From Hirudinaria manillensis (Eukaryota > Annelida > Clitellata > Hirudinida > Hirudinidae): a DNA stretch of 64,000 bases. Position numbers and translations under genes: made by a program. Under the pieces are notes generated by a model. That model did no database searches. It worked only from the letters and a program-made list of their open reading frames with translations, and had not been told where the DNA came from. Of the stretch, positions 3,967 to 43,817 are shown in pieces (within the stretch, counting starts at the first letter, position 1; each line of letters begins with the position of its first letter). The DNA is taken from the NCBI GenBank assembly GCA_034509925.1, contig CM067531.1, forward strand, positions 7,113,319 through 7,177,318. Reading direction: 5' to 3'.

Positions 3967-5743
3967 TGCACTCAAATTCTCCCAAAAACATTCGACATCA
4001 TCTTTGGAATCCTAACAATTCCTGGGAGTTCTATTATTTATACATTATCATTCACTTTTGAAATTGATGACTTTAATTAGTGTATAAATTTATTAATAAA
4101 ATTAAATATTTCAATATCGTCGCCATCGTCATCAGGAGCATCGACTTATTTTTCAGTTAGGAGTCGGGAGACCCTCGTGAGCGAACGATTAAAAGTGAAA
4201 ACAGATTTAGATTGCAATCGTTTTCCATGATGAGATTTAACAGAACAATTTGCCTGGAGCCAATTCCATGTTTTTGCAATTTTTCTTCTGCCTTCCACCA
4301 TTTCGATTATTTGTCGGGATTTTTCAGGGTTCTTTTTGTCCACAATTTCATTCTTGATGCTCCAATATGTTAAACGTACTACGTAATTCTTTGGTTTCCA
4401 TGTAATTGAAGGTGCTTTTAATTGCCCGTGCTTCTTACTTTTAATCATCAAATTCTTTGTCAGTAATCCTCGCTTTCAAGACTTGCTATTCCATCGCTTC
4501 TGCGAGCACATGTTGATGAGTTCGATTGCACGTAATATTTCTTCCCGAAAAGCGCCATCCATTCAACAAACAAAACGCACTCCAGAAGTTGATTAAAATC
4601 CTGTCGTGACTGAGGAATCCGTCGTAATTTTCGAGGAAAAGTCAGTTTTGAAGAGTTCTGAGTATTTCATCTCCAGTAATGAACATCAGATGGTTTGTGC
4701 AAAGTCAAGCCGTTTGCTTCCAATTGAAGAAGGTAACTTTTCGTCGGGAATGATGAAGATCGAGAATATACCCCTTGGAGGTGCCGCTGAATTCCTGGGA
4801 GGCATTGGCGGTGATAATTACAATAAGGCAGTAATAATTTTAATAATTATAATTATATAAGATTTGGTAATAACAACAGGTTGGATTAGCAACAAAACCA
4901 ATTCCGTCGATATCTTCGCGATTGTGATTAAGACCACTTTAATTATAATACGGAAATAAAATAATAATTTTAAGTATAATAAAACGACTAATCCAAAATT
5001 ATAGACTTAAAAGATTCAGACCTTCTCTTCCTCACACAACTGGCCCAGAATCGAAAGTTGTTTTTAAGATATACCTTCATAACGAAGTGTCCACTCGATG
5101 GGAAGGAAGTAAAGTGCAAATTTTCTTCTCGATAATTTCAGTTTTTTCAATTTGAATTAAATGCCCCAAAATGCCTTATGAAAATGTAAGAAAAAGGTTC
5201 ATCTGATTCAAGTTCTAATTTTGTCTCTTTTGTTTTCCTGTAATCATTTAATTAACTTCTGGAAGCATGTTGGCAACATAACTTCTAAACGTGACTTATA
5301 CGTGAATCAAGTGCACGTGCGAACGATCAAAAAGATGAACACGTACGCGAACGAAAGAGATCTCCCATCAATCGAGACGGGCCATGCATTGTTATGCGTG
5401 TGGGTGCCGTCAGCCTATATCATCTGCTACGTTGACGAATTGGCTCTCATTTTGAATGAACTGCAGGCTAGTGGATTTGAATTTTTATCGTCTCTCTTTT
5501 CCTCGTAATCTCTCCTCTATTGTGGTTGGCTTTGTCTTTGCTACTGTCCCGGACTGCTACTGTGCAGTAGAAACTTTAGTTGTTCCGATATAGAACAAGA
5601 AAAGATTTACTACATACTTCGACAATTTCGGTAATTTCTGGATACCTGGCTCTCATGACAAGCTGGAGTTGAGTTTACATTTTCCATGATTATTAAAATT
5701 TGATTTCGTAATAAGTCGATCGATCTTGAATTAGGGAGCAGTC

Positions 5744-7621
5744 ATGCCGACAAGATTTCGCTTTGTCGTCGCGATTGTGGTATTGTTTGTCGACAGCGCA
5801 AAAGGCTATCAGATGGACGCTGACACCAAGAAGTGCGAGAAGATAACAATACCTCTCTGTGCCACCATGAAGTATAACCTAACCCTCATGCCCAATCTCG
5901 TCGGTCAATCGAATCAGAAAGATGCCGAACTCCAGGTTCACGAATTCATACCGCTCATTCAGACTGGATGCTCTCCATGGCTCAAGTTCTTTCTCTGCTC
6001 CTTGTACGCGCCGATGTGCACAGAACAAATCGACGAAACCCTCGTCATTCCCGCCTGCAGGTCAATGTGTCTCAGAGTAAAAGAAAAGTGCGAGCCACTC
6101 TTAAGGCAGGTGGATTTTCAGTGGCCTGCTGTTTTGGATTGTGGCAATCTGCCGGAGAAAGGAGAAAGAAGTTCAGTCCTTTGCATCGAACCTCCAGGAG
6201 ATCACGACTCTTATGACAGCAGTTATGACGGGCGACAAAACAACAATATGGAGGAGGTTGGTCTAGTCGGATCAGTTGGAACGAACGGAAACATAGTGCG
6301 CTTATTAGAAGCTCTCAAGCATCAAAACCACCACTTTAGCTCCACTCCGCCTTCAGGTAGTGGCTACAAATCACCAAAACACCATCCTGCCATCAATTCC
6401 ATAATTCCTGGTTCTCCGTCGATTTATAAGCTACACCCCGATGACGGCCACTGTCCCCAGAGATACGTGGATCTCGGCAAAGTAGTCACACGAAAAATTA
6501 ACGACTCTTGCGCCCCACGCTGTCTTGCAGACGTTATGTTCAAAGCCGACGACAAGCAGTTTGCCGAAGTATGGATGATCATTTGGTCGATATTCTGCTT
6601 TGTTTCGACCAGTCTCACATTCTTGACTTTCCTCATGGATAACTCGAGATTTAAATATCCGGAGAGACCGATTATCTTCCTCTCCGCTTGCTGTCTCGTC
6701 TACTCTAGCGCTTACATCCTGAGGATTCTCTTTGGTGCCGAATCGGTTTCGTGCGATCAGTTAAGACCGGGTGTGAGTTACTTGATTCAAGACGGTTTGG
6801 AAAACATAATATGCATTGTGGTCTTCCTTCTCCTCTATTTCTTCGGCATGGCAAGTTGTATATGGTGGGTAATCCTGACATTCACTTTCTACTTATCCGC
6901 GGGTAGGAAATGGGGCAGAGAGGCTATCCAGGGTCTGAGCACTTATTTTCACGTGGTTGCTTGGACTTTTCCAGCCGTTAAAACCATCATAGTGTTGATA
7001 TTGAGAAGAGTTGACGGAGATGAATTGACGGGTTTGTGCTTTGTCGGCAATCAAAATCCAACCTCTTCTCTGGCATTTGTCATCAGTCCGCTGATTTGTT
7101 ATCTGGCTATTGGCTCTATCTTTATCATAGCAGGCTTTTTTGCTATGTTCAGGATAAGGAATGATCTCAAGCTAGACGGAGGCGCCGATTTGAAGAAGTT
7201 CGAGAATCTGATGATCAAGATTGGAGTCTTTTCTATCCTTTACACTGCTCCTGCCACTTGTGTTGTGGGTTGTCTCTTGTACGAGCGCTCCAACCAAGAT
7301 AAATGGAAGGCCACATCATACGCCACACCCTGTCTCCATTTGGACAGATCTTCCAAACTCGTAGATTGCTCGTTGCCACGATCGATACCGTCGTTAGAAA
7401 TTCAAGTTCTCAAGATTTTTATGTTTCTCATCATCGGAACTGCCAGCGGTGTTTGGATTTGGTCACCGAAAACCGTCCAAACCTGGAAAAACTTCTTCTC
7501 GCGAACTATAAACCTTCATTCGAGAAGAAGTCCCCGTGCAGGCAGATCAGTTGTTCGAAGGGCCACCACAAAGGAAAGTGCCGTACTTTTTCAGACTTCT
7601 TCGACCAGAAACGGATTTTGA
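5744..7621 (+). CDS. Frizzled receptor, Fz4/9/10-type, single exon
   Basis: Seven-transmembrane Wnt receptor at the plasma membrane. The 625-aa frame opens with a signal peptide (residues 1-21). A frizzled cysteine-rich domain follows from C31 to about residue 148, with all ten conserved cysteines visible. A long linker of about 120 residues leads to the first membrane segment near 275, which begins WMIIWSIFCF. The cytoplasmic Dishevelled-binding motif KTVQTW starts at K576, directly after the last helix. The DELTGLC motif and a cysteine pair before the last helix (DCSLP) fit the Fz4/9/10 group; by eye it is nearest Fz9/10 there but Fz4-like in the third extracellular region, so the subtype stays open. 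The C-terminus (STRNGF) is not a standard PDZ ligand. No intron interrupts the coding region, unlike the intron-rich neighbours. The ATG follows stops and gives a good signal peptide. Confidence 0.96.
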   Translation: MPTRFRFVVAIVVLFVDSAKGYQMDADTKKCEKITIPLCATMKYNLTLMPNLVGQSNQKDAELQVHEFIPLIQTGCSPWLKFFLCSLYAPMCTEQIDETLVIPACRSMCLRVKEKCEPLLRQVDFQWPAVLDCGNLPEKGERSSVLCIEPPGDHDSYDSSYDGRQNNNMEEVGLVGSVGTNGNIVRLLEALKHQNHHFSSTPPSGSGYKSPKHHPAINSIIPGSPSIYKLHPDDGHCPQRYVDLGKVVTRKINDSCAPRCLADVMFKADDKQFAEVWMIIWSIFCFVSTSLTFLTFLMDNSRFKYPERPIIFLSACCLVYSSAYILRILFGAESVSCDQLRPGVSYLIQDGLENIICIVVFLLLYFFGMASCIWWVILTFTFYLSAGRKWGREAIQGLSTYFHVVAWTFPAVKTIIVLILRRVDGDELTGLCFVGNQNPTSSLAFVISPLICYLAIGSIFIIAGFFAMFRIRNDLKLDGGADLKKFENLMIKIGVFSILYTAPATCVVGCLLYERSNQDKWKATSYATPCLHLDRSSKLVDCSLPRSIPSLEIQVLKIFMFLIIGTASGVWIWSPKTVQTWKNFFSRTINLHSRRSPRAGRSVVRRATTKESAVLFQTSSTRNGF

Positions 7622-28965: not shown

Positions 28966-29353
28966 TAATGAAGACTGTAAATAATTAGTAGTTTTAAGTG
29001 AGATCCAACAAGGACAAACTTATGTTAGAAAGTGTTTATGTTTGGCAAGATCCAAAAATTAAACAATGTTAACCCAGACACAGTTGTAATTTTATTTTTC
29101 ACAAATTGGGGTGGCGTGTAACGCGTTGGTGTACTTTTGTTCGTCATGCGTTTGTAGTCGTCTGTCTCATATGCTGAAAAATTTTAATTTGATTGAATCC
29201 CTTAAAGTTGTAAAATTAATTGTTAGAAATTTTATATGGTTGTTGAGTTGAATAAACCCAGAAAAAAACCACTTCAAGGTGAGATTCGGTGTTGTTCGGA
29301 GTAGCCTTAGCAACCGTTCCTGGCCGTAGTTCATTGGTAATGCCGCGAGTGGG
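28966..29353. other. Short intergenic region upstream of DRC10
   Basis: 388 bp holding the 3' end of the methyltransferase gene and the DRC10 promoter. The X-box-like site at 29301 is the only motif recognised. Confidence 0.5.
29301..29314 (+). promoter_or_regulatory. RFX X-box-like site, 40 bp before DRC10 start
   Basis: GTAGCCTTAGCAAC matches the X-box pattern of RFX transcription factors (GTNRCC, 0-3 bases, RGYAAC) in both half-sites. It lies close to the start codon of a motile-cilium gene, where such sites are known to act. The match is seen; function is inferred. Confidence 0.6.
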
Positions 29354-31325
29354 ATGAAGTTAGGCGATGTTATGGTCTTGGCATCATCACCAATGATAGG
29401 GATTAATGAGAGACTTCCTAAGACACGATTAATGGAACGTATGGAGCTCGTACGTACAAATAGTTTAGTCGATATAAAGGTAAAGTTACCTCCTTTGGAA
29501 TTCCAGCATTTTACGTCCGTGTTGAAAGAAGCTATAAAAAAGGTGGAAATTATTGCCATCATGCCACATGTATTAGATAACAAGGAAAAGTTTAAAAATC
29601 TATTGGGATGTGAATTGATGGATCATTTGGAGAAACACAAAATTATTCTGGGAGCATTAAAAGAGCTTGAGATCTTGAACGCTAAGAACAAAGACATTGA
29701 CAATTTTAAGAAGAAAGGTAAAGAATTTTCAAGTGAACTTTCCATGGATGTCACTTCTCAAATGTTTGCAATAAATGAGAAACTGAGTCCAGAAGTATTG
29801 TCTCCAAACAAGAGACTTCAGCAGCAATTTGAAATGATCAGAAAAAATTTAGACTTAGTGGCTCAAAGGCTGAAGTCCTCATGCAGAATAATTTTAAAAT
29901 CTTTTAATCAGAATCTGTTAGCATACGAAACCATAAGAAATGATAAAGATTTGCAAATCTCAAAGGAAGTAGAGGAATTTCTTCATCAGTTCAATTATTT
30001 AAAACTTATATTTACAAAGAGGATGTCCATAACAGCAAATGAGAAGAGAGAAAAAGTAATGGAATTTAATTCTTTTCTGGAGCAAAAGGAAATCGGTGAG
30101 CAGATGATTGTGCAGCTTGAAAGTGAAGTATCTCTGATTGAAAAAGAAATGAAAGATGTGGTTAGATTTTCATATCTAAGATCCATTTAAAGTCAATCTT
30201 ATCTCGCTTAGGTAATTTTATTTTGTGTTGCTATTAAATATAATAAGTACTAGCAGTAATGGTAATGATATAAATATAATCTGCAGTCCAATTTACAGAC
30301 ATCAAAATTTTAGAAGTAATATTGTTGACATTTGAGAAATTCTATTTTCACTGATTAATATATTTCATGATTCATGTGCTTTTTAATGAAGTTGTAGTAT
30401 CTTGAGTTTTCTAGGACCTTCTACTATTTTTTGTCAATTAATAAAGCTATTGGTTGAAAATGAGAAAGTCAACAAACTCCAAGAGAATTTAGAGATGATG
30501 AGAGCCAAACATGAAGAATGTCTAAACAGCATCAGTTCAGAATTTAAGAAGCAAGAACTCACCTGCCAAAAAAATCAAGAAAGCAGAATCAGAAAGATGA
30601 AACAAGAGCTTGAACAAATTGGATCAAAATTTGATTCCGCTCTTGAAATTCATTTTTCTGAAGAAGCTCAACTTAGAAAGGTTATTATGAATCTTTTTTA
30701 CCAAAAGTTATTGCTTTTACTTAATAAATCAAGAAATCAAATCTTTCTTAATTTTTAAAAATTATCACAAAATAAAATCTTTAAAAATTGTTAAGCTTTT
30801 TTTCTGAGTTTTTTTATTTTTAGATATTGCATAATAATTAAGATTAATGAATTAAATCAATATCAATTTAAAATCAGAAAAAATATAAAGTTGAAGCCGA
30901 ATTGGAAGATGCAATCCATAACTTCGATGAACAAATGCTGGCACGAGATGTTAGGACATGTCCTTCTTAATAAGATTTTAAACAGCTACATAACTTCAGC
31001 ATGAAATTACATCATTAAGTTTTGCTTGCAGAAAGAGATGGAAGAGGTAAACCTTTTCTACCAGAAAGAGAAACAAATGCTGGAAATTACGGAGCAGAAA
31101 TTTGGAGCTCTGAAGGTGGAATATGATAGAGTTATGGAGGAAAAGGCAGCAAATGAAAAGAAGCTTCAGAAAGAACAACTAGAAGTAGAAAAGCTCACAA
31201 GAGCAGTCACTATTATACAGAGTGTGTGGAGGTCATACAAAGTCAATAAGATCATTAGAGCGAGGAGGAAGAAGGCTGTCGGCGGTAACTTGGTACGAAG
31301 GAAAAGCATGATGAAGAAGTCTTAG
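29354..31325 (+). CDS. DRC10: Dynein regulatory complex subunit 10 (IQCD-like)
   Basis: Coiled-coil component of the nexin-dynein regulatory complex of motile axonemes. Exons 29354-30160, 30447-30680, 30878-30949 and 31032-31325 all meet at phase 0 and give 468 aa, close to the usual length. The first 270 residues are helical with no membrane segment. Residues about 270-440 form a long coiled coil rich in Lys and Glu. A single IQ motif near the C-terminus (IIQSVWRSYKVNKIIRARRKK region, around residue 445) is the family hallmark for calmodulin binding. An X-box-like RFX site lies 40 bp upstream. The gene name rests on overall layout (helical N-part, coiled coil, one terminal IQ); another single-IQ coiled-coil axonemal protein is the alternative. 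Confidence 0.78.
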
Positions 31326-32722: not shown

Positions 32723-35700
32723 ATGGGAAACTTATTTCTCCTGTTTTTGATCATCGCTACAGGTAAATATATCTTGAAATTAATGAGGTACACTTAAAAT
32801 TATATTATAAATATAATTACATTCGATATTTTATATATTCACACCTATGATTAAGATTTTATGCCTCGTTTGACGTAAACATTGACGAAGCCTAATGTTT
32901 TAAGGTTTTGGAGTTTACAAATACACCGACGCCGCCGTTTTATCTGCTGGTAAGAACATTTTATTTGAACAAGGTCTTAATAGATTAGAAACAGATTGTT
33001 TTTATGTTAGGACAGCTAATATTATTTAATAATACTTTTTTATGGTCATGAAACAATTGTTGTGAATTTCCCTTTTTCTCGTCAAGAGTGTCACGATGCA
33101 CCGTGTAATGTTGTCTGTCAGTTCGAACAAGTGGTAGATTCATCGGGTTGCAAAGTATGTGGGTGCCAAGATCCTTGCCAAGTAAATATTTAAAATTTCT
33201 TTTTCAATTATTTCAAATTCCCCTTAATCTCACTTCATTTTCAGTCAGTCTTTCATATTTCCACGTCTTTGCTCGGATAAAATAGATATAGATTGACTGA
33301 TTGATCAAACCTTAATGTTATTGACACTTTCAAATAAACATCACTACCGGAAAATTTCAATTACACCATCGTTATCATTACGACCAATTCATTAGGATGT
33401 AGATTGTCCTTCCAATTCAACTTGTCGGCCGATAAAACACGGCGATTCTGAAGATGACGAGTACATAGGACAATGTACTGGTAGAGGTTGATAATATTCA
33501 TTTTAATTTGTATTTAAATGATATCATTCGATTAAAAATTTTAAAATTTTCTTCTCAAGAATGTCCTGTCCTGTCTTGTAAAGCGAATTGCACAAATGGT
33601 CACACATTGGATTTAGAAGGATGTCCGACTTGCGCTTGCATCGAACCGTGCCATGTTGGTTGTTATTTTTAATTTTATGATCAATCATTTTAGTTATTAA
33701 GTTTTGTTTTAAAGTATTGCCCAATCATATTAATTAAGAAGTTATACTACGATTCGTAATGAACCAATAACAGGAGCAATTGAATAATGACATATAACTT
33801 TTTGTAGCTAAAATAAGATTTCCTAACAAATTTCTTAAAATATCTTTGACAGTCAAAAGTTTGTCCAGCCGGAGAGATGTGTAAGGCAACGAAAATTGGT
33901 GCGAAGAGCGACTTTGAGGTGCACTGCGTGAAGTCGAACACCGTCGAAGAGCCAGAACCTGGTAAAAATAACTTTAAAAAAAGTATTTATTTATAAGATT
34001 AAATATTAGCGGATTTGATACAGATATTAGGACAGCTAATATTAATTAATAGTACAAATGGGCATAGAGCGATTGCTATAAACTTTCCTTCTTTTCGTCA
34101 AGAGTGTCAAGATGGAGCTTGTAATGTTGTCTGTCAGTTCGAACAAGCGATGGATTCACCGGGTTGCAGAGTTTGTGGGTGTCAAGATCCTTGCCAAGTA
34201 AATATTTAAAATTTCTTTTTCAATTATTTCAAATTCCCCTTAATCTCACTTCATTTTCAGTCAGTCTTTCATATTTCCACGTCTTTGCTCGGATAAAATA
34301 GATATAGATTGACTGATTGATCAAACCTTAATGTTATTGACACTTTCAAATAAACATCACTACCGTAAAATTTCAATTACACCATCGTTATCATTACGAC
34401 CAATTCATTAGGATGTAGATTGTCCTTTCAATTCAACTTGTCGGCCGGTAAAACACGGCGATTCTGAAGATGACGAGTACATAGGACAATGTACTGATAG
34501 AGGTTGATAATATTCATTTTAATTTGTATTTAAATGATATCATTCGATTAAAAATTTTAAAATTTTCTTCTCAAGAATGTCCTGTCCTGTCTTGTAAAGC
34601 GAATTGCACAAATGGTCACACATTGGATTTAGAAGGATGTCCGACTTGCGCTTGCATCGAACCGTGCCATGTTGGTTGTTATTTTTAATTTTATGATCAA
34701 TCATTTTAGTTATTAAGTTTTGTTTTAAAGTATTGCCCAATCATATTAATTAAGAAGTTATACTACGATTCGTAATGAACCAATAACAGGAGCAATTGAA
34801 TAATGACATATAACTTTTTGTAGCTAAGATAAGATTTCTTAACAAATTTCTTAAAATATCTTTGACAGTCAAAAGTTTGTCCAGCCGGAGAGATGTGTAA
34901 GGCAACGAAAATTGGTGCGAACAGCGACTTTGAGGTGAACTGCGTGAAGTCGAACACCGTCGAAGAGCCAGAACCTGGTAAAAATAACTTGAAAATTAAT
35001 TTTTTATTAATTTTATGAAACCAGTAAATCTAAGGCCTATTTATTGATTTAATCAAGTCGAAATGGATATTATTGAAATATATTATTAAATTATTAATAT
35101 TTAATATTGTCAGAATGTTTTGAAAAGAGCTGTAACATGTCGTGTGAATTCGGTCAAGCCAAGGATAATAACAACTGTTTGGTGTGCAGTTGTGCTGATA
35201 ATCCTTGTAGTGTTAGTAATTTCATTCTCTTCCAGTCTGCATCAATTGGTTCGCTGTAGTGTCTCAGAAACTGATTGAAACTTCAAAACCAAAATTCTTT
35301 GAGACGGAAAGACAATATAAAAATTGTTGACAACTTTTGTTAAAGCTATTTCCAAACTTAAATGGTTTTGTAATCCACCATAACCTATGGGAGTTTTTTT
35401 AATTTTCGCTTTTAACAATTTCAAGGTTAAGACATGCGATAAAGGACACAAATGTGTGCCTGAAAAGACTGAAGATGATTACTATTTTGGAAACTGCACA
35501 GGTCATTCGATGCGATAATTAACATTTAATTATTATATTAATAAATAATTATTATGTTTTATTTAATTTTTTTACATATTTAATAATTATAAATGAAATA
35601 TTTTTGTAATTGCTATGCTTAACTATTTTTGTGATGATACCATGATTCACTTTTAACCGATAATGGGAACAATTGAGTAATGGTTCATCTAAAAAAAAGA

Positions 35701-38700
35701 TAAATTAATGAATATTTATTTATTGGCATGCTTCTAATTTAAAACTGCATACATTCTATTTAACATTTTCTACGACATACAATTGCATTTTTAAAACTAA
35801 ATTAAAATAACTAATTATAGTCCTAGATTTCAACTCCTTCGTCTTACCACTAATACTTCATTTGATATCCACTTACAGTATGTCCCCACATCAGCTGTGT
35901 TAACAGTTGTCCATTTGGTTACTTGAGACCAAATGGTTGCGATTCGTGCGACTGTGCACGTGACCCTTGTTCTGTGAGTTGATAGGAAAACAGTGATTTG
36001 CGGATTTATTTTGGAACCTCACGTGTTAAAATTCGAGTTAATTGATATTCTTGCGACGTCATGTTTTATTCATTGTTTAAACCAATTTTTAAAAACAAAT
36101 AATACTGCTGCGAGGAGGTACGTAGTTGTGATAAAAGATTGAAATATTTTCAATTGAAGGACATAAGTTGTCCCCAAGGTAACAAGTGCACTCCAAACTC
36201 AGAGAATTTGCCCGAATGTGTTTCTGTCGGTGAGTTGTTGAAGAGTTTTTAAAATTTTAAATTAATTATTATTGAATAATTATCCGTTGTCGTGCATTGT
36301 CAAATGTTATTAGAAAGATTTGCCGAAATGTGGCTGCAGTCTCATAAAGATGTAAAATCTCATATTTCATTTGGTTCGCCTCTTTCCAAATAAAAATATT
36401 TTTTCAGAAAATCATTGCCTTGAATTGGAATGCAGACTGGAATGCTTGGGTTTCGTTGAATTCAATAAGAACAAATTGAACTGCACATCATGCCGCTGCG
36501 ACAATCCGTGTCTCGTTGGTGTCAAAATCATTGTCATGTTAAGCCGAAGTATCATAGTGGCAGAATTTCATTGATATGTGACCCGCCCCAATATAAATCT
36601 TTTGCAGAATGCCACTTGCAAAGATAACATGTGTTTCATGGAGCAGAAAGTCTATTCGGAGGCTGGAAAAGAGATCAAGGTCACCTTGGGAAGTTGTCGC
36701 GGTACGACGATTGGTTATTTTTAACATAAAGTAATTAAATAATTAATTTTTAAGTTTTTATTAAGAATGATTGCAGTACTGACTTGATATAAAGCTGTTG
36801 TGAAATTGTTTCCTGTCAATAAAACAGTAAAACATTAAAGTGAAAATTATTCTAAATCGAAATTAATTGATACTTAAGTAAAGAACAACTAGAATAGATG
36901 TTATCTTTGAATTTAGTTTCTTGTATTGTTTGCAGAAGATCAAAAGTGTCCCACATTGTCTTGCAACAAAACATGCAACTTGAAAAAAGATAAATTTGGC
37001 TGTCCTTTGTGCCAATGTGCTTCGGCATGTGATGTAAGCCTCACATTTTAATAAATACAATTATTTAAATTATTAATTTATTAAAACGTTTAAATACTAT
37101 TAATACAATTATTGATTATATATTTATTTGAAAGTGATGCAATTTATATTCCTTATTAATATCGTCGTCGTCACAACCATTATCTCGATCCAGATAAAAA
37201 AATGAAATATTGTTATAGTTTGCAATCATATTAATGTCATAATATAATGTTTAACATAATATAATATAATATAATATAATATAATATAATATAATATAAT
37301 ATAATATAATATAATATAATGTAATGTAATGTAATGTGATGTGATGTGATGTAATGTGACGTAATGTAATGTAATGTAATATAATGTAATATATTGTAAT
37401 ACAATACAACACAACATAATATAATATAATATAATATTGATAGAAACTCTTGAGCGAGCGTTCTGACAGGGATCTTCAGAGGAATGGCCCCCTCTACGAG
37501 TGTTTCGGCCCTGAATCCTGACACTCTCGGGGTCTGGGCCGCATCCGTTGATCAAGCGGATGTCCCTGCCAGATACTTTCTTCCGATAACCAGACAACGA
37601 CTTCCGACAAACAAACAATACTCGCACCGCCATTTTACGAAAAATTCCGCGAGGGCTCCGCCGTCCGAAAAACCGTCAAAGTAGCCATTACGGCACTTCT
37701 TCTATCACTTTGGTGTGAATGCCGTCCGGGATGTCTCTTTCCTGGTCTTACACTGGAGTCCCTGTTTTGGTGGAGTGGACAGGGACGAGTAGCCTCGCCG
37801 TGTCTGAGGCTTACCTTCGGTCCTTCGTTGTCCAGATCCAGTGAGAAGCCGATTCTGCGGACTCGGCTATTTTCTGGACGAACTGTTTGGTTTGCCTGTT
37901 TGAAAGGCCTATCTTCCTGAGAAAGGCGTATGTAGACTTGCCTACCAGCCCTCTCGCTCCGACTTCTATTGGTAACACACGGGCGCTATAACCTTTCCCC
38001 TCTAAATCCATCTTCAGCTCTTCATAACGGTCGCTCTTCAGAGCATTGCTGACATCAATTCGGTCCTCCCATGGGACCGTCAGCTCTACGATAATGACGG
38101 AATCGGTTGCTGCCGACGCCAGCACCAGATCAGGCCGCTTGCCGCTCTCTTGTATCACCTGGTGGTAGTGCCTTTCTCCCTGCAGGTCTGCCGCAACTGT
38201 CCAGTCTTTGGCTGTGGACAGCAAGTCCCTCATTTGGGCCATGTTCCTTTTGCGGTGCTGTGTTGAGCCCTCTCTTAAGAAGTACATTCTTCTTGGTGCC
38301 GCGATTTCTCGGGCATATGCCTGGGAGCATGCCGTCTTAGCCGCCTCGACCACGACTTGCAGGACTTGGTTATGTCGCCAAGTGTAGCGACCGTGAGCAA
38401 GGGCGTACGTGCATGATGAAAGCACGTGCCGGAGTGACTGTTCACCTCCGCAGAGCTCGCAGCTGGCGTCTTGAACCATCCCCTACTTCTGTAAGTTGGA
38501 CCCGGAAGGGAGCACGTAGACCGACCTTATGAGGAATGCCAAGCGGAGGAGAGACTTTTTCCAAATGTGATGGATCTTTGGATTACGTCTTCCCAGGTTG
38601 TCCACTGTCCTTGCTGGCTTTGCTGCACTGCCAGCGCAATCCTTTCGGTCTCCATCTCTCGCCTTCTCTCTTGGATTATCATGGCGGCTTTTGTCTGCAC

Positions 38701-41700
38701 ATTCGCTGTGGACCATCTTGGAAAATGGTTCCATCCGACTCCATGGCGGTCTACCTGCACGGGTCCTCTTTTCTCCTCGAAGGCTAGGATTGCCTCGGAT
38801 TCCTCAATTTCTTCCTGGGCTCTGAATTTCCTTCCTGAGCGGAGTTGCGGCATGACGTCGCGGACCCTGCTGTCACTGGAGTTGTTGAGCGACCATTGAG
38901 TTCTGATTTTGCTAATTTTATATTCTTCAACGATGGATCTGAGGGGCAGCCTCAACCGTGTGCTTCTGCTGTACAGGGCGATCGACGATAGCGAAGGCGG
39001 TAACCCGAACCATTTCCTTGTACACCGATTTATTTTCCTTTCCATCTCTTCTACCGACTGCAGGCCTATTTCGTAGATGGTCAGTGGCCACAGCAGTCTT
39101 GGTAGCGGGACGAACTGCAGGAGCCAGACTTTGAATCTGCCCTGTAGCGGCGATTCTGCAATCGCTCTCAGAACGTCGGTCATCCTACTCACAGTGGCTG
39201 CCTCCTGGTTTTTGTCGCGGAGGGACACGTCGAAAACTCTTCCCAAGCTCTTTAATGGCTCTTCTGAGACCGTCGGAACGCGTTGTCCTTCGGCGGTGAA
39301 GCACACGTCGCTGCGAACTCTCCCTCTTGTGAGAGAAAGACTCCGGGATTTTGCGGGTTTCAGAGCCATGCGACCATTGGAGTAGATCATTGAGCTTGTC
39401 AAGGGCTCTTTGGACAATCTGCTGCCTGTTTAGAACGATGGTGGTGTCGTCCATGAAAACCTTTACTGAAGGCATAAACACCCCTCTACCCAAACGCATC
39501 TTGGGGATCTCAGCTCCTACTGCATTTAGTACGACTTGAATGGCAAGCACAAACAGCGATGGAGAAATGGCACATCCCATGGCTATGCCGATCTGCAGAG
39601 GGATCCAACACGTGGTGCAATCTTTCGTGGAAAACGCATCACGAAACCGTTGAAGTATTCTTTGAGTACCTCAATTACCGTTCCAGGAACATGGTGGATC
39701 TCTAACGTCTTCCAGAGGAGTTGATGGGGCACCGATCCATAGGCGTTGGCCAGGTCGAGCCACACGACGTGTAGGCTGTTTCCTTTTTGCGTTCTGGATC
39801 GCCTCCCATATCATTGCGGTGTGCTCAATGCACCCCGGCACACCTGGAATGCCTCCCTTTTGAACTGCTGTGTCGATGTACTTGTTTGTTGTCATGAACG
39901 TAGTCAGCCTTGCCGCTAGACATGTGAAGTAGATTTTCCCTTCGACATTCAACAACGAAATGGGCCTGAACTGATTTATGTGCTTGGATTCCTTTTCTTT
40001 CGGAATGTACACACCTTCCGCTACTTTCATTCGTTGTCGACTGCGGCATTGGCCCAGGTGGAAACTATTATTGTGTGGAGCAGCTTGAGCGTTCTTGGGC
40101 ATCTCTTGTAGAGCAGATATGGGATCCCGTTGGACCCGGGCGCGGAGCGGTTTCTTGCCTTCTTCACGACTCCCTTAACCTCCTCGATCGATGGAGCTGC
40201 CTCCTGAAATGGATGATCCGGGAAAGGTGCTTCCAGAATCTCAGTTCTCTGAGGAAGCGGTGTGCTGCGAAGAGCATCGGTGTACGTCTTGGTGAGGTGT
40301 GCTTCTAGCTCCGTCTTTGAAGCAGCAAGAGTCCCTGATTTTGGTGGTTCGAGCAGTGACCTCCCGTAGCGATACGGATCTCTGAAAAATTCTTGTCTTG
40401 CTCGCCTTCTCTCGTACCTCTTTTGTCTCGTCCTTTCTGCTTGACGGAGGGTGTTGATTCTTCCTTTGACCTCCTCCCACAGCACCATCAAACCGGCCTT
40501 TTCGGCCTCACCCGAACTTTTCCATCTGCTGCGAAGGACCCTTTTCTCGCGCTTTAAACTTCGTAGCTCGATCTGCCGCCTGGATTCTTTGGGTTTTGTG
40601 GGGCGCTTGACTTCGACAGACCCGAACTTCTCTAGGCAGGAAGCGTAGATGAAATCGGAGAAGCTCTTCATAGTGCCTTCTCTTTTCATCACTCTCTTGA
40701 GGCCGGTTGCGAGATTGCCATCCAGTTCTTGCCACACTTTCATGTCTTTGCTTGAAGGAAATTTGATCCTTTGCCTGACTGGGTCTGATGCTGGAAGAGA
40801 GACTCGAACCAACTCGGGACTGTGGTGTGCCTCCTGCCCGGTGTCGTTCGGCGTTTTATGTGTCGGCTCTTGCGCGACAGGACGCTGTCTCTCAATGCAA
40901 CCCATTTTTGTCTGATGGATCTTCATTCCCTTCCCTGAAGCAAACGATTTCCCGCAAATACACCTGCGTGTAACGTAATGTAATGTAATGTAATGTAATG
41001 TAATGTAATGTAATGTAATGTAATGTAATGTAATGTAATGTAATATAATATAATATAATATAATGCTATTTAAGATCGTTTAATTGCAGCAAATCGATTG
41101 CGGCAAAATTGGAATCTGCAAATCCGTCCCGATATTTACAGGAGACCCTTCCAACAAATTATTTCTCCAGAAAGAAGTTACCGAATGTCATGGTAGGAAC
41201 GAAATATTATATTAAATATTATTTGACGATCACAATTTTCCAACCTTAATTAGACAAAATATTTAAAAAAAACATCAAGGAATAGAAATAAATAAAATAA
41301 AAACATTATGGCCATAATTTTATTGGATTTTTAATAAATAATCGTCTTTGTTTAACCAGTTTGCCCGACTTTAAAGTGCTCCAAGCCATGTCTGTTCGGC
41401 TTCAGGAATTGTGAATCTTGTCAATGTGCTGACAATCCTTGCGATGTTGGTTCTTAAATAACAATTAATTCCATTATTAATTCTAATTTAATTATTCATT
41501 GCCTAATTATTGTCTATTATTATTAGCTGATCATTATTAGTTGCATTAAAACACACGGGGCGCCTCTGATGCATTACAGATTTAACTGTTATTATTATTA
41601 TTAACATTGATTTTACTGCTGCAATTATATGAATTTGTAATTAATAAAAAAAAATTGAAATTGTAAATAATAAAAATAAGTCGTTGCTAATGTAATTAAT

Positions 41701-43817
41701 TATATGCAACAATATTCAAATCCATTTAATTAAGTAATATTATTTATTTATGTTACTACCAAGAATAATGGATGTTAATTTAGGAACGTTTGAGTTGTGA
41801 TTATAATGTCCAATTTGTGATTATAATGTTTAATATGTGATTATAATGTCCAATGATTATACAATGTCCAATGGTCGTCCATTAATAATATGTTTACCGT
41901 TATTTCGTTTACCGAATATTTCCAATGTCTTAAAATTTATTTTTAACCAGGATGCCACTTTGAACCCTTGGAAAACGTGTCAGGCCCTTTTCTTTCCAAC
42001 TTATGCTGAGTCCACTGAATTATTTACTCCCAGAGCAAACATTTACCAGGACTTCATCTACTTGAGTCAGTCCGTCATCATCATCATCATCGTCATCGTC
42101 ATCATTATTGTCACGATCATCATCATCATAATATGTGACGAACCCTTAAGTTTGTAATATTAATTAATATTTAATTAATATACATTCCAATTGTACCAGA
42201 CGAAGGGGAACCCAGGTGCGATCAACTGAGGCAAAGATACCTGGAGTACTTTAATCTTTCCTATCCGTTGAACTTTGACTCAGAAAACAACTTTAAACCC
42301 CTTCAATGTTTTGCCGACATGTGTTGGTGTCTTAACAAAACTGGTCATCAACTTGGAAGTTTGGAAGCTGAGGACTTGCAATCCATCACGTGTGGTTAGT
42401 ACTGGTTGCTATGCTAATTATGATGATGATGGTGACGACGATGAATTGAATCATTGATGAAGACCAACTTGTTCATAATTCTATTCAGGATATTATTCTA
42501 AGGAATACTTCCAACTGCTAGCAATGAAAGACATGAGTGAGATTCCTGAAGATATTAATTGGAGACTTAAGATGTTGGTCTTTGTAATAAAACCGATTTT
42601 AAAATTTAAAAAAAATTAAACATAATATGTTCTTTATAATTACATAAATTTCAGTGAATTTTCTAAGCAACTGGCAGAGTTGTTAAAAGTGAAAGAAGAT
42701 CAAGTTATTTTTACGTCAATTGAGGTCATTAATTCTGTTAATTTTAATTAATTGATATCTGATTTAATTGAATTAGTTAAAAATAATTGAAAGTACTGTA
42801 GAAGTTGGGTCAAATGGCGTCCAGTTATTTAACGAGATTCTACTTGAAATAGGAACCGAAAAGGAAAGGATTCAAGTTGAACTATCTTGTTTTGGCTTCA
42901 ACGGAGTATGAGGCCGCGCAAATAAGGGTAATTCGATGTTATTAATTCACCATCGTCGAATGATATTATTTCTATAATCGTTCTTTAATGTTTTAAAATT
43001 TTATTAAGCTTAAAGTTTCTATTATACAATTATGCTTATACCTTTTACCGTGCATCCATTTCAGAATCTAGCGCCGACAATTTTAAATCTGACATTACAA
43101 GAACTGCCTTTTGGCTTTCAATCCATCGACCCGGCGATTACTTCTTCCCCCAATCCACCCACCAACCCATCCATCAGTCCATCCCTCAGTCCATCCACAA
43201 ATCTATCCATCGTTTCATCCATCGACCCATCCGTCACTCCATCCAGCAGTCCATCCACCCCTTCATCGACTAATCCTCTTATCAACATTCCCACTGATTC
43301 TTCAACCAATCACGAGTCAAGATCAACCTCTTCATCACCTGGAGAGTCTGAAGAAGTTACGAAGCTTTTGCTTCTCACAATTCTTTTGCCCATTTTAGTG
43401 GCTCTCTGCGTTTTCACAGTTGCCTTTATCATTGGCTTTTGTATCATAAAGGTGAGTTCTTCATCAATGACATCAATGCCATCGTCGTCATCATCGTCAT
43501 CATCATCATCATTGATAATGAGCATTGTTACGTTTGATATTATTTTTATAGAGATTGAAGAGCAAACATATCTCCACGACAGGAAGCCTGTACAAAGAAC
43601 CGATCGTATTTCCAGAGGTGTCTTTGAAGCAATTGAAAAAATAATTGTTGTATAATTTTGTATAATTAATCATCCTAATACAATAAGAATAATTTCACTA
43701 TTAGCACGACCATCAACTCATAAACCACTGCAATTATTAATGTTATTGTTTCAATATCTGCAGAACCCTAAACTGGACTATCCCTACTTGCGTTCCACCT
43801 CATTGTCAGAAGCTTGA
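32723..43817 (+). CDS. Membrane-anchored multi-antistasin/thyroglobulin protein, 27 exons
   Basis: Predicted type I membrane protein of about 910 aa, probably a cell-surface protease inhibitor or adhesion molecule (function inferred). Exons start at 32723, 32905, 33087, 33396, 33560, 33853, 34103, 34412, 34576, 34869, 35114, 35426, 35879, 36160, 36408, 36608, 36936, 41090, 41360, 41951, 42200, 42489, 42655, 42853, 43065, 43552 and 43764; every phase joins. Order: signal peptide (MGNLFLLFLIIA); nine antistasin-type six-cysteine modules (about residues 29-60, 89-120, 157-188, 219-250, 287-319, 345-376, 400-435, 467-499, 534-562), the first eight each followed by a separate exon with three cysteines; a Cys-poor exon; a thyroglobulin type-1 domain (601-665, with QCFADMCWC); an SEA or EpCAM-like region to about 760; a Ser/Thr/Pro stalk; a membrane helix (843-870); a 40-residue tail. 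The TY-SEA-like-TM order recalls EpCAM/TROP2. The exon starting 34412 has an altered donor. Confidence 0.8.
33087..34988 (+). repeat. Recent internal tandem duplication of a two-module block
   Basis: Four exons with their introns (33087-33972) are repeated at 34103-34988 with a constant offset of 1016 bp and no indels. Introns differ at only a few positions, while the first exon of each copy (33087-33181 versus 34103-34197) differs at about eleven bases. Upstream of the exon, alignment needs a 4-bp shift (offset 1020). The unit adds two antistasin modules and two linkers in frame. Confidence 0.92.
37237..37436. repeat. (ATAAT)n/(GTAAT)n microsatellite, 3' side of retroelement
   Basis: Pentanucleotide array of ATAAT units passing into GTAAT/GTGAT units and back, directly abutting the 3' end of the minus-strand retrotransposon. 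Lies in the intron after exon 17 of the antistasin gene. Confidence 0.9.
37438..40960 (-). mobile_element. Decayed R2-superfamily (RLE-type) non-LTR retrotransposon
   Basis: Minus-strand polyprotein remnants in several frames. 40926-40027: basic region and start of reverse transcriptase (APGSNGIPYLLY). 40102-39780: FRPISLLNVEGK and PGVPGCIEHT. 39765-39620: WLDLANAYGSVPH. 39580-39380: AMGCAISPSLF and catalytic FMDDT. 39417-38500: thumb and downstream. 38479-37811: a CCHC knuckle (CELCGG...H...C) and a restriction-like endonuclease core (KRPDLVL...VELTVPWEDR). The order RT, zinc knuckle, C-terminal endonuclease is diagnostic of R2/R4-type elements. At least four frame breaks mean it is dead. 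N-terminal zinc fingers are missing, so the 5' end is probably truncated. About 130 bp of 3' UTR (to 37438) recur at 48.7 kb. Confidence 0.9.
40971..41065. repeat. (TAATG)n/(TAATA)n microsatellite, 5' side of retroelement
   Basis: About twelve TAATG units then TAATA units. It is the counterpart of the array on the other side of the retrotransposon, so the element appears inserted into one such array. Confidence 0.9.
43142..43260 (+). repeat. Coding (CATC/CAGTC) microsatellite forming Ser/Pro stalk
   Basis: Degenerate CCATC-type units inside exon 25 of the antistasin gene encode a Ser/Pro/Thr-rich stretch ahead of the transmembrane helix. The frame is kept throughout. Confidence 0.8.

Follow-up and report, generated by a model that had tools for sequence, protein, structure and literature searches.

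Antistasin modules are best known from leech saliva, and the antistasins of leeches have been studied as anticoagulants. What, then, might a long array of such modules be doing when it is carried by a protein with a membrane helix? This question is raised by a gene of Hirudinaria manillensis, predicted from DNA alone at positions 32723-43817 (+ strand) of a stretch of 64,000 nucleotides, C6:7113319-7177318, which we call the window; genome searches covered the 148.4-Mb assembly of 23 contigs. The best explanation of the whole, to which we assign a probability of roughly one half, is that the predicted protein is a type I surface protein that presents inhibitor or protease-binding modules on a tether, and the probable site of its action is the surface of the leech's own cells.

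Gene model and antistasin array

Reconstructed from its splice sites, first by eye and afterward with a script, the gene comprises 27 exons and a single open frame of 2733 nt, which encodes 910 amino acids and a stop. All 26 donors have GT (GTTGGT in 5/26), all 26 acceptors have AG, and the sole stop is the last codon; the 27 phase-consistent exons of the preliminary description are thus borne out. The predicted protein runs from a signal peptide through the antistasin array, a degenerate thyroglobulin type-1 (TY) exon, and 98 residues of uncertain nature to a Ser/Thr/Pro stalk, a transmembrane (TM) helix, and a 39-residue tail. We judge this model and its type I topology to be very likely correct. 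The start codon, the signal peptide, and a short N terminus (residues 1-28) are encoded in exons 1-2 (32723-32949; this and all other exons lie on the + strand), where the most hydrophobic 12-mer, LFLLFLIIATGF, has a mean Kyte-Doolittle hydropathy of 2.8.

The in-frame model and the module pattern place an N-terminal antistasin half-module (C5-C10, with Asn at P1) in exon 3 (33087-33181). Exons 4-19 (33396-41445) encode eight complete ten-cysteine modules, identified by pattern and by Pfam, and throughout the array the exon phases alternate, each module joining a first-half exon of phase 0-to-1 to the following second-half exon of phase 1-to-0. The ten-cysteine spacing of the family occurs eight times in the protein, in exon pairs 4+5 to 18+19, versus not once in 2000 shuffles of the same protein. 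A first, narrower pattern had matched four modules and was widened at loops C3-C4, C4-C5, and C7-C8; the widened pattern was put through the shuffle control again. The Pfam Antistasin profile (PF02822) matches at 34.4 bits over seven stretches, above its cut-off of 21.2. Papers are cited here by PMC number from excerpts of their text. Loops C3-C4 and C4-C5 exceed those of the pattern in PMC12838937, the former spanning 9-22 residues in the window protein versus 4-6 in that pattern.

The preliminary description counted nine antistasin modules. Nine second halves are indeed present (C5-C10; exons 3, 5, and so on to 19), but only eight modules are complete, the ninth second half being the N-terminal half-module of exon 3. 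A further module start has decayed in exon 20 (41951-42065), which shares the 0-to-1 phase of the other first-half exons and shows the spacing C-x4-L-x5-C: C1, encoded at the end of exon 19, remains, as does C3; C2 has become Leu, and C4 is lost. Hirustasin pairs C1 with C3 and C2 with C4. By that connectivity both partners of one disulfide are gone and the other pair is kept. Because exon 20 is a decayed module exon of the same phase pattern, lying between the array and the TY exon, it ties the two into one gene.

The TY-like exon and the membrane-proximal end

Exon 21 (42200-42394, phase 1-1) follows. The thyroglobulin type-1 domain of the preliminary description survives there in reduced form. 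A fragment passes the Pfam cut-off for TY (PF00086; 21.3 and 23.2 bits versus 20.6), but a Pfam scan of the full-length protein does not list the domain at E up to 10, and the exon is absent from the five matches of a genome-wide TY profile search at E 0.001. Its cysteines number five rather than the six, in three disulfides, of a canonical domain, with Phe at the place of Cys2 in the alignment with saxiphilin; we therefore call the exon TY-like, and the lost cysteine makes a role as a cathepsin inhibitor doubtful. Single-sequence fold prediction of the exon gave helices only (pLDDT 64, pTM 0.45) and was unusable. At C3:2783911-2787096, a separate TY exon (E 1.6e-16) precedes, by about 0.8 kb, a transmembrane segment and a basic tail that to the eye resemble those of syndecan. 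An acidic Gly/Ser-rich stretch leads up to the segment, and this locus is a possible second TY membrane protein.

Exons 22-24 (42489-42927), together with the start of exon 25, encode a membrane-proximal region that we read as SEA-like from its pattern and position. The SEA/EpCAM-like region proposed earlier did not find confirmation in profiles: the SEA profile (PF01390) matched the window protein neither in Pfam scans nor in PDB sequence searches. A SEA profile search of the genome returned no match anywhere, its controls included, and is hence uninformative. SEA domains may cleave themselves at a site of the GSVVV type, as in MUC1, and the C-domain of EpCAM is described as SEA-type (PMC7349879). 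Such a site is not found here: the window protein reads KGFKLNYL at the place proposed by eye, and the related locus discussed below reads KGSILLT. EpCAM and some other SEA-type proteins lack this type of site as well. A PDB sequence search with the region after TY returned only mS23 (E 0.013) and a Cas3-type protein (E 0.95). We took mS23 as a chance match, and likewise the weak Pfam matches to the KIAA0319 C-terminal domain (13.4-15.7 bits, cut-off 27), Methyltr_RsmF_N (13.3-14.2, cut-off 34), Orf78 (14.6, cut-off 29.4, over the TM region), and AWS (8.4).

Exon 25 (43065-43451) completes the SEA-like region and adds a mucin-like, 77-residue stalk, of which 62% is Ser, Thr, or Pro, and the transmembrane helix at residues ~843-870 (mean Kyte-Doolittle hydropathy 2.96 over residues 845-865). 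The cytoplasmic tail, with a YPYL motif and the C-terminal residues TSLSEA, occupies exons 26-27 (43552-43817). The in-frame model and the hydropathy thus support the Ser/Pro stalk, membrane helix, and short tail described earlier. The DNA of the stalk at 43130-43270 is a simple repeat of the CCATCC type, which in another frame gives HPSIHPS, and a microsatellite may have given rise to the stalk.

Like EpCAM and TROP2, the window protein passes from TY to a cysteine-free membrane-proximal region and then to a TM helix with a short tail. Unlike them, it has an array in place of the N-domain (none was seen), a TY lacking Cys2, a 77-residue stalk, and a SEA fold that is only putative, whereas the EpCAM/TROP2 family combines an N-domain, a six-cysteine TY, a SEA-type C-domain, and a TM helix. 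PDB sequence searches ranked thyroglobulin first and EpCAM, at E 0.057 (16.5 bits) or E 0.033 (17.5 bits), behind both thyroglobulin and saxiphilin; TROP2 appeared at E 0.58 or worse. The stretch matched to EpCAM covers the second half of TY and ~33 residues past it, and the region after TY, searched alone against PDB sequences, did not find EpCAM. Within the genome, the part from TY to exon 25 has five matches, all inside the window (four candidates scored). Homology to EpCAM was rejected, since a sequence match of E 0.033-0.057 is too weak.

A related locus, known relatives, and competing readings

Searched with the array, the genome gave 29 matches up to E 1, of which 18 lie in the window and 11 elsewhere, the best of these at C3:8225189 (E 5.5e-5, 33% identity). 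The locus L039 (C3:8217500-8226900) contains six antistasin half-modules by a strict pattern (counting L037, a locus inside it) and about a dozen by eye. Its last half-module shares one frame, with no intron between, with a SEA-like stretch ending KFEKGSILLTADVLYQN...ENDQ. After a phase-0 intron comes an exon that holds the rest of the region and a helix (mean hydropathy 3.28), and then a tail exon and a last exon, both phase 0; the splice sites of this part were read by eye. The window gene is divided in the same way, its region end, stalk, and helix lying in one exon that a tail exon and a last exon follow, all phase 0, and the last exons of both genes start with (N)PK and end with EA. L039 therefore places an antistasin module and the membrane-proximal stretch in one polypeptide without a splice, although the helix lies one splice farther on. 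It differs from the window gene in its short stalk, its different modules, tails without significant sequence similarity, and the TY, which was not seen in L039. Pfam and PDB sequence searches found no SEA domain in L039 (best Pfam match FAZ1_cons, 12.9 bits, cut-off 27.5), and a genome search with its stretch matched only itself (one candidate scored); in both cases the junction of the query was slightly off, two residues (VI) being read from the intron. Listed segments from the 8 kb preceding L039 (L042) showed no further modules by eye. In the second array fetched, L040, no obvious membrane helix follows the modules among the listed segments, and tethering is accordingly not general.

A second leech gene of similar layout suggests that the window gene is not a freak. 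We consider it probable that a phase 1-1 exon carrying TY was inserted where an antistasin array already adjoined a membrane-proximal and TM tail like that of L039. Given this probable insertion, and the same layout without TY in L039, the EpCAM/TROP2-like order is probably convergent; what stands of the proposed relation is the resemblance of order at the C-terminal end; kinship is not supported. Somewhat short of even odds, we would extend this to a leech family of multi-antistasin proteins that are tethered to the membrane and have a SEA-like domain next to it. Its members would include at least the window gene and L039, one of them would have independently reached an EpCAM-like TY - SEA-like - TM end by insertion of a TY exon, and the family would also guard or decorate the surfaces of the leech's own cells. 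The window gene would then be a test case for the convergent assembly of such an end by exon shuffling.

How far does this depart from what has been described? Leech antistasins are reported with two repeats and 20 cysteines (PMC10671345), and MCRA with 242 residues and four antistasin-like motifs, one of them disrupted (PMC12838937). The window protein shares the ten-cysteine module and its repetition with antistasin, hirustasin, and MCRA of leeches; unlike these soluble proteins of one to four modules, it has a stalk and a membrane helix. Arthropod thyropins also unite TY and antistasin in one protein (PMC3407033), but they group TY with WAP-antistasin, and a membrane anchor goes unmentioned in the excerpt. 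Antistasin occurs with WAP arrays in limpet shell proteins (PMC3374290), and mixed inhibitors are known from silkworm (PMC3278429). The earlier statement that no described protein has this combination must be narrowed: TY with antistasin is known from arthropods, and it is the tethered antistasin array that was not found in the accessible portions of the open-access literature on antistasin with thyroglobulin, SEA domain, or membrane anchoring. The architecture may lie unannounced in public annelid predictions. As far as the excerpts go, leech papers describe small antistasins rather than large tethered genes, and such genes may therefore be overlooked.

HAI-1/SPINT1 is a type I membrane protein with several inhibitor modules of the Kunitz type. 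Tethered inhibitors of this kind offer an analogy of working only, the modules being Kunitz there and antistasin here. In the window protein, the array would project from the surface of the leech's own cells as a rod rich in disulfides, and its modules could bind serine proteases in the manner of substrates at the residue after Cys6 (Lys, Lys, Arg, and perhaps Val), which would protect that surface or regulate proteolysis there. Modules with Asn or Ser after Cys6 might act as spacers or have other ligands, shedding of the ectodomain might take place in the membrane-proximal region and stalk, and YPYL in the tail might allow uptake. A tethered form suggests a role of the antistasin family for the leech itself and a possible origin of the secreted anticoagulants.

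The tethered multi-headed inhibitor that the preliminary description had put forward remains, as a reading of the sequence, the best one; it would fit the family and three basic sites and is limited by the other six. Arg is named at the reactive-site position in the segments CREHC and CRIYC (PMC11897028), and the residues after Cys6 in the nine second halves of the window protein are, in order, N, K, N, K, N, V, R, N, and S, the ninth read from the module at residues 498-556. Several results weigh against this explanation. Basic residues occupy only 3/9 reactive sites and Asn 4/9, whereas Asn occurs at this site in none of 25 other distinct second halves (R 4, K 3, E 3, A 3, G 2, S 2, F 2, D 2, and T, Q, I, and P once each). 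These 25, drawn by a stricter pattern from the fetched loci with those of the window left out, are only part of the total, as a genome profile search lists 63 Antistasin matches. The nine sites are also not independent, because exons 3/7 and 5/9 are duplicates. A PDB sequence search with the 533-residue array as query found no chain at E up to 1. Nor do the tails of the window gene and L039 lend sequence support to a tethered family: BLASTP, run with the correct L039 junction, found no match between them, and shuffles aligned as well or better in 134/2000 cases locally and 446/2000 end to end for the whole region, and by parts in 127/3000 for the post-intron stretch (marginal), 426/3000 for the last exon, 1121/3000 for the pre-intron part, and 2925/3000 for the tail exon. 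Sequence homology of the tails was rejected as not significant, and their common descent is suggested by layout only.

The strongest competitor, which we regard as possible but clearly less probable, is a surface receptor for adhesion or ligand binding, in which the modules are a structural scaffold that has lost inhibition and the TY - SEA-like - TM end works as in EpCAM/TROP2. In its favor, six of the nine reactive-site residues are not basic, and the order of the end resembles EpCAM. The ectodomain has 93 cysteines, an odd number, so that at least one must be unpaired or intermolecular, which would permit a disulfide-linked dimer. It has to contend with two Lys and one Arg at the canonical place, with the weak sequence match to EpCAM, and with a TY that lacks Cys2.

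That the gene is decaying seems improbable, and part of the evidence on this point comes from a tandem duplication of exons 3-6 and 7-10 (33087-34977, + strand; 95.4% identity over 992 nt, copies spaced 1016 nt apart). The donor of exon 8 is ambiguous, the GT chosen in copy 1 reading AT in copy 2, but a GT six bases on, present in both, keeps the phase. Cysteines are lost in exons 20-21, but the joint loss of C2 and C4 fits one lost disulfide; an insertion lies in intron 17, but it is intronic, and 2733 nt remain without stop or frameshift. No clear purifying selection is evident between the copies (combined pN 0.038, pS 0.045): exons 4-6 differ by four changes, all nonsynonymous (pN 0.018, pS 0), and exon 3/7 gives pN 0.10 and pS 0.19, changes too few for any claim about selection. 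Identity jumps sharply at the end of exon 3 (33087-33181 versus 34103-34197), from 88% within the exon to 99% onward to the end of exon 6. Differences number 11/95 in exon 3/7, 15 and 4 gap columns in the 57 columns before it, and 7/38 and 3 gap columns after exon 6, versus 4/491 in introns 3-5 together and 4/289 in exons 4-6. This unevenness suggests either an older duplication partly homogenized later, by gene conversion, or two duplication steps.

Equally improbable is a division into two neighboring genes, one for a secreted multi-antistasin protein (exons 1-19 or 1-20) and another for a small TY/TM protein. In its favor, exon 20 has an in-frame ATG ahead of it at 41846, which precedes the mildly hydrophobic PLIICLPLFRLP (mean hydropathy 1.7). 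But this is no strong signal peptide beside that of exon 1 (2.8), exon 20 keeps the phase of an array exon and a remnant of its spacing, exons 19-20-21 stay in frame, and L039 holds a half-module and the membrane-proximal stretch in one frame.

The retroelement and neighboring genes

The insertion in intron 17 is a reverse-transcriptase retroelement of ~3.5 kb on the - strand (about 37450-40967), non-LTR-type by eye and not part of the protein; RVT_1 matched one of its five pieces at 31.7 bits. Its 401-base end has 41 genome matches (40 of 363 candidates scored): besides the window copy itself there are 39 at 98-99% and a short one at 81%. On C7 and C9 several copies follow one another head to tail at intervals of exactly 3849 nt, and a 75% relative recurs at an exact spacing of 4020 nt on C4 and C16; these exact spacings indicate that such retroelements form tandem arrays. 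The copy in intron 17 sits in a TAATA/TAATG pentanucleotide repeat, and the flank readable in one of five other copies (L048) is without such a repeat.

Just upstream of the window gene, on the same strand, lies a coiled-coil gene (29330-31325), DRC10/IQCD-like by eye, whose 285-residue open frame gave no Pfam match at E 0.01 and which has an IQ-like motif, IQSVWRSYKVNKII, at its end. Farther upstream, a single-exon Frizzled gene occupies 5738-7618 (Frizzled, 414.6 bits; Fz, 106.2 bits).

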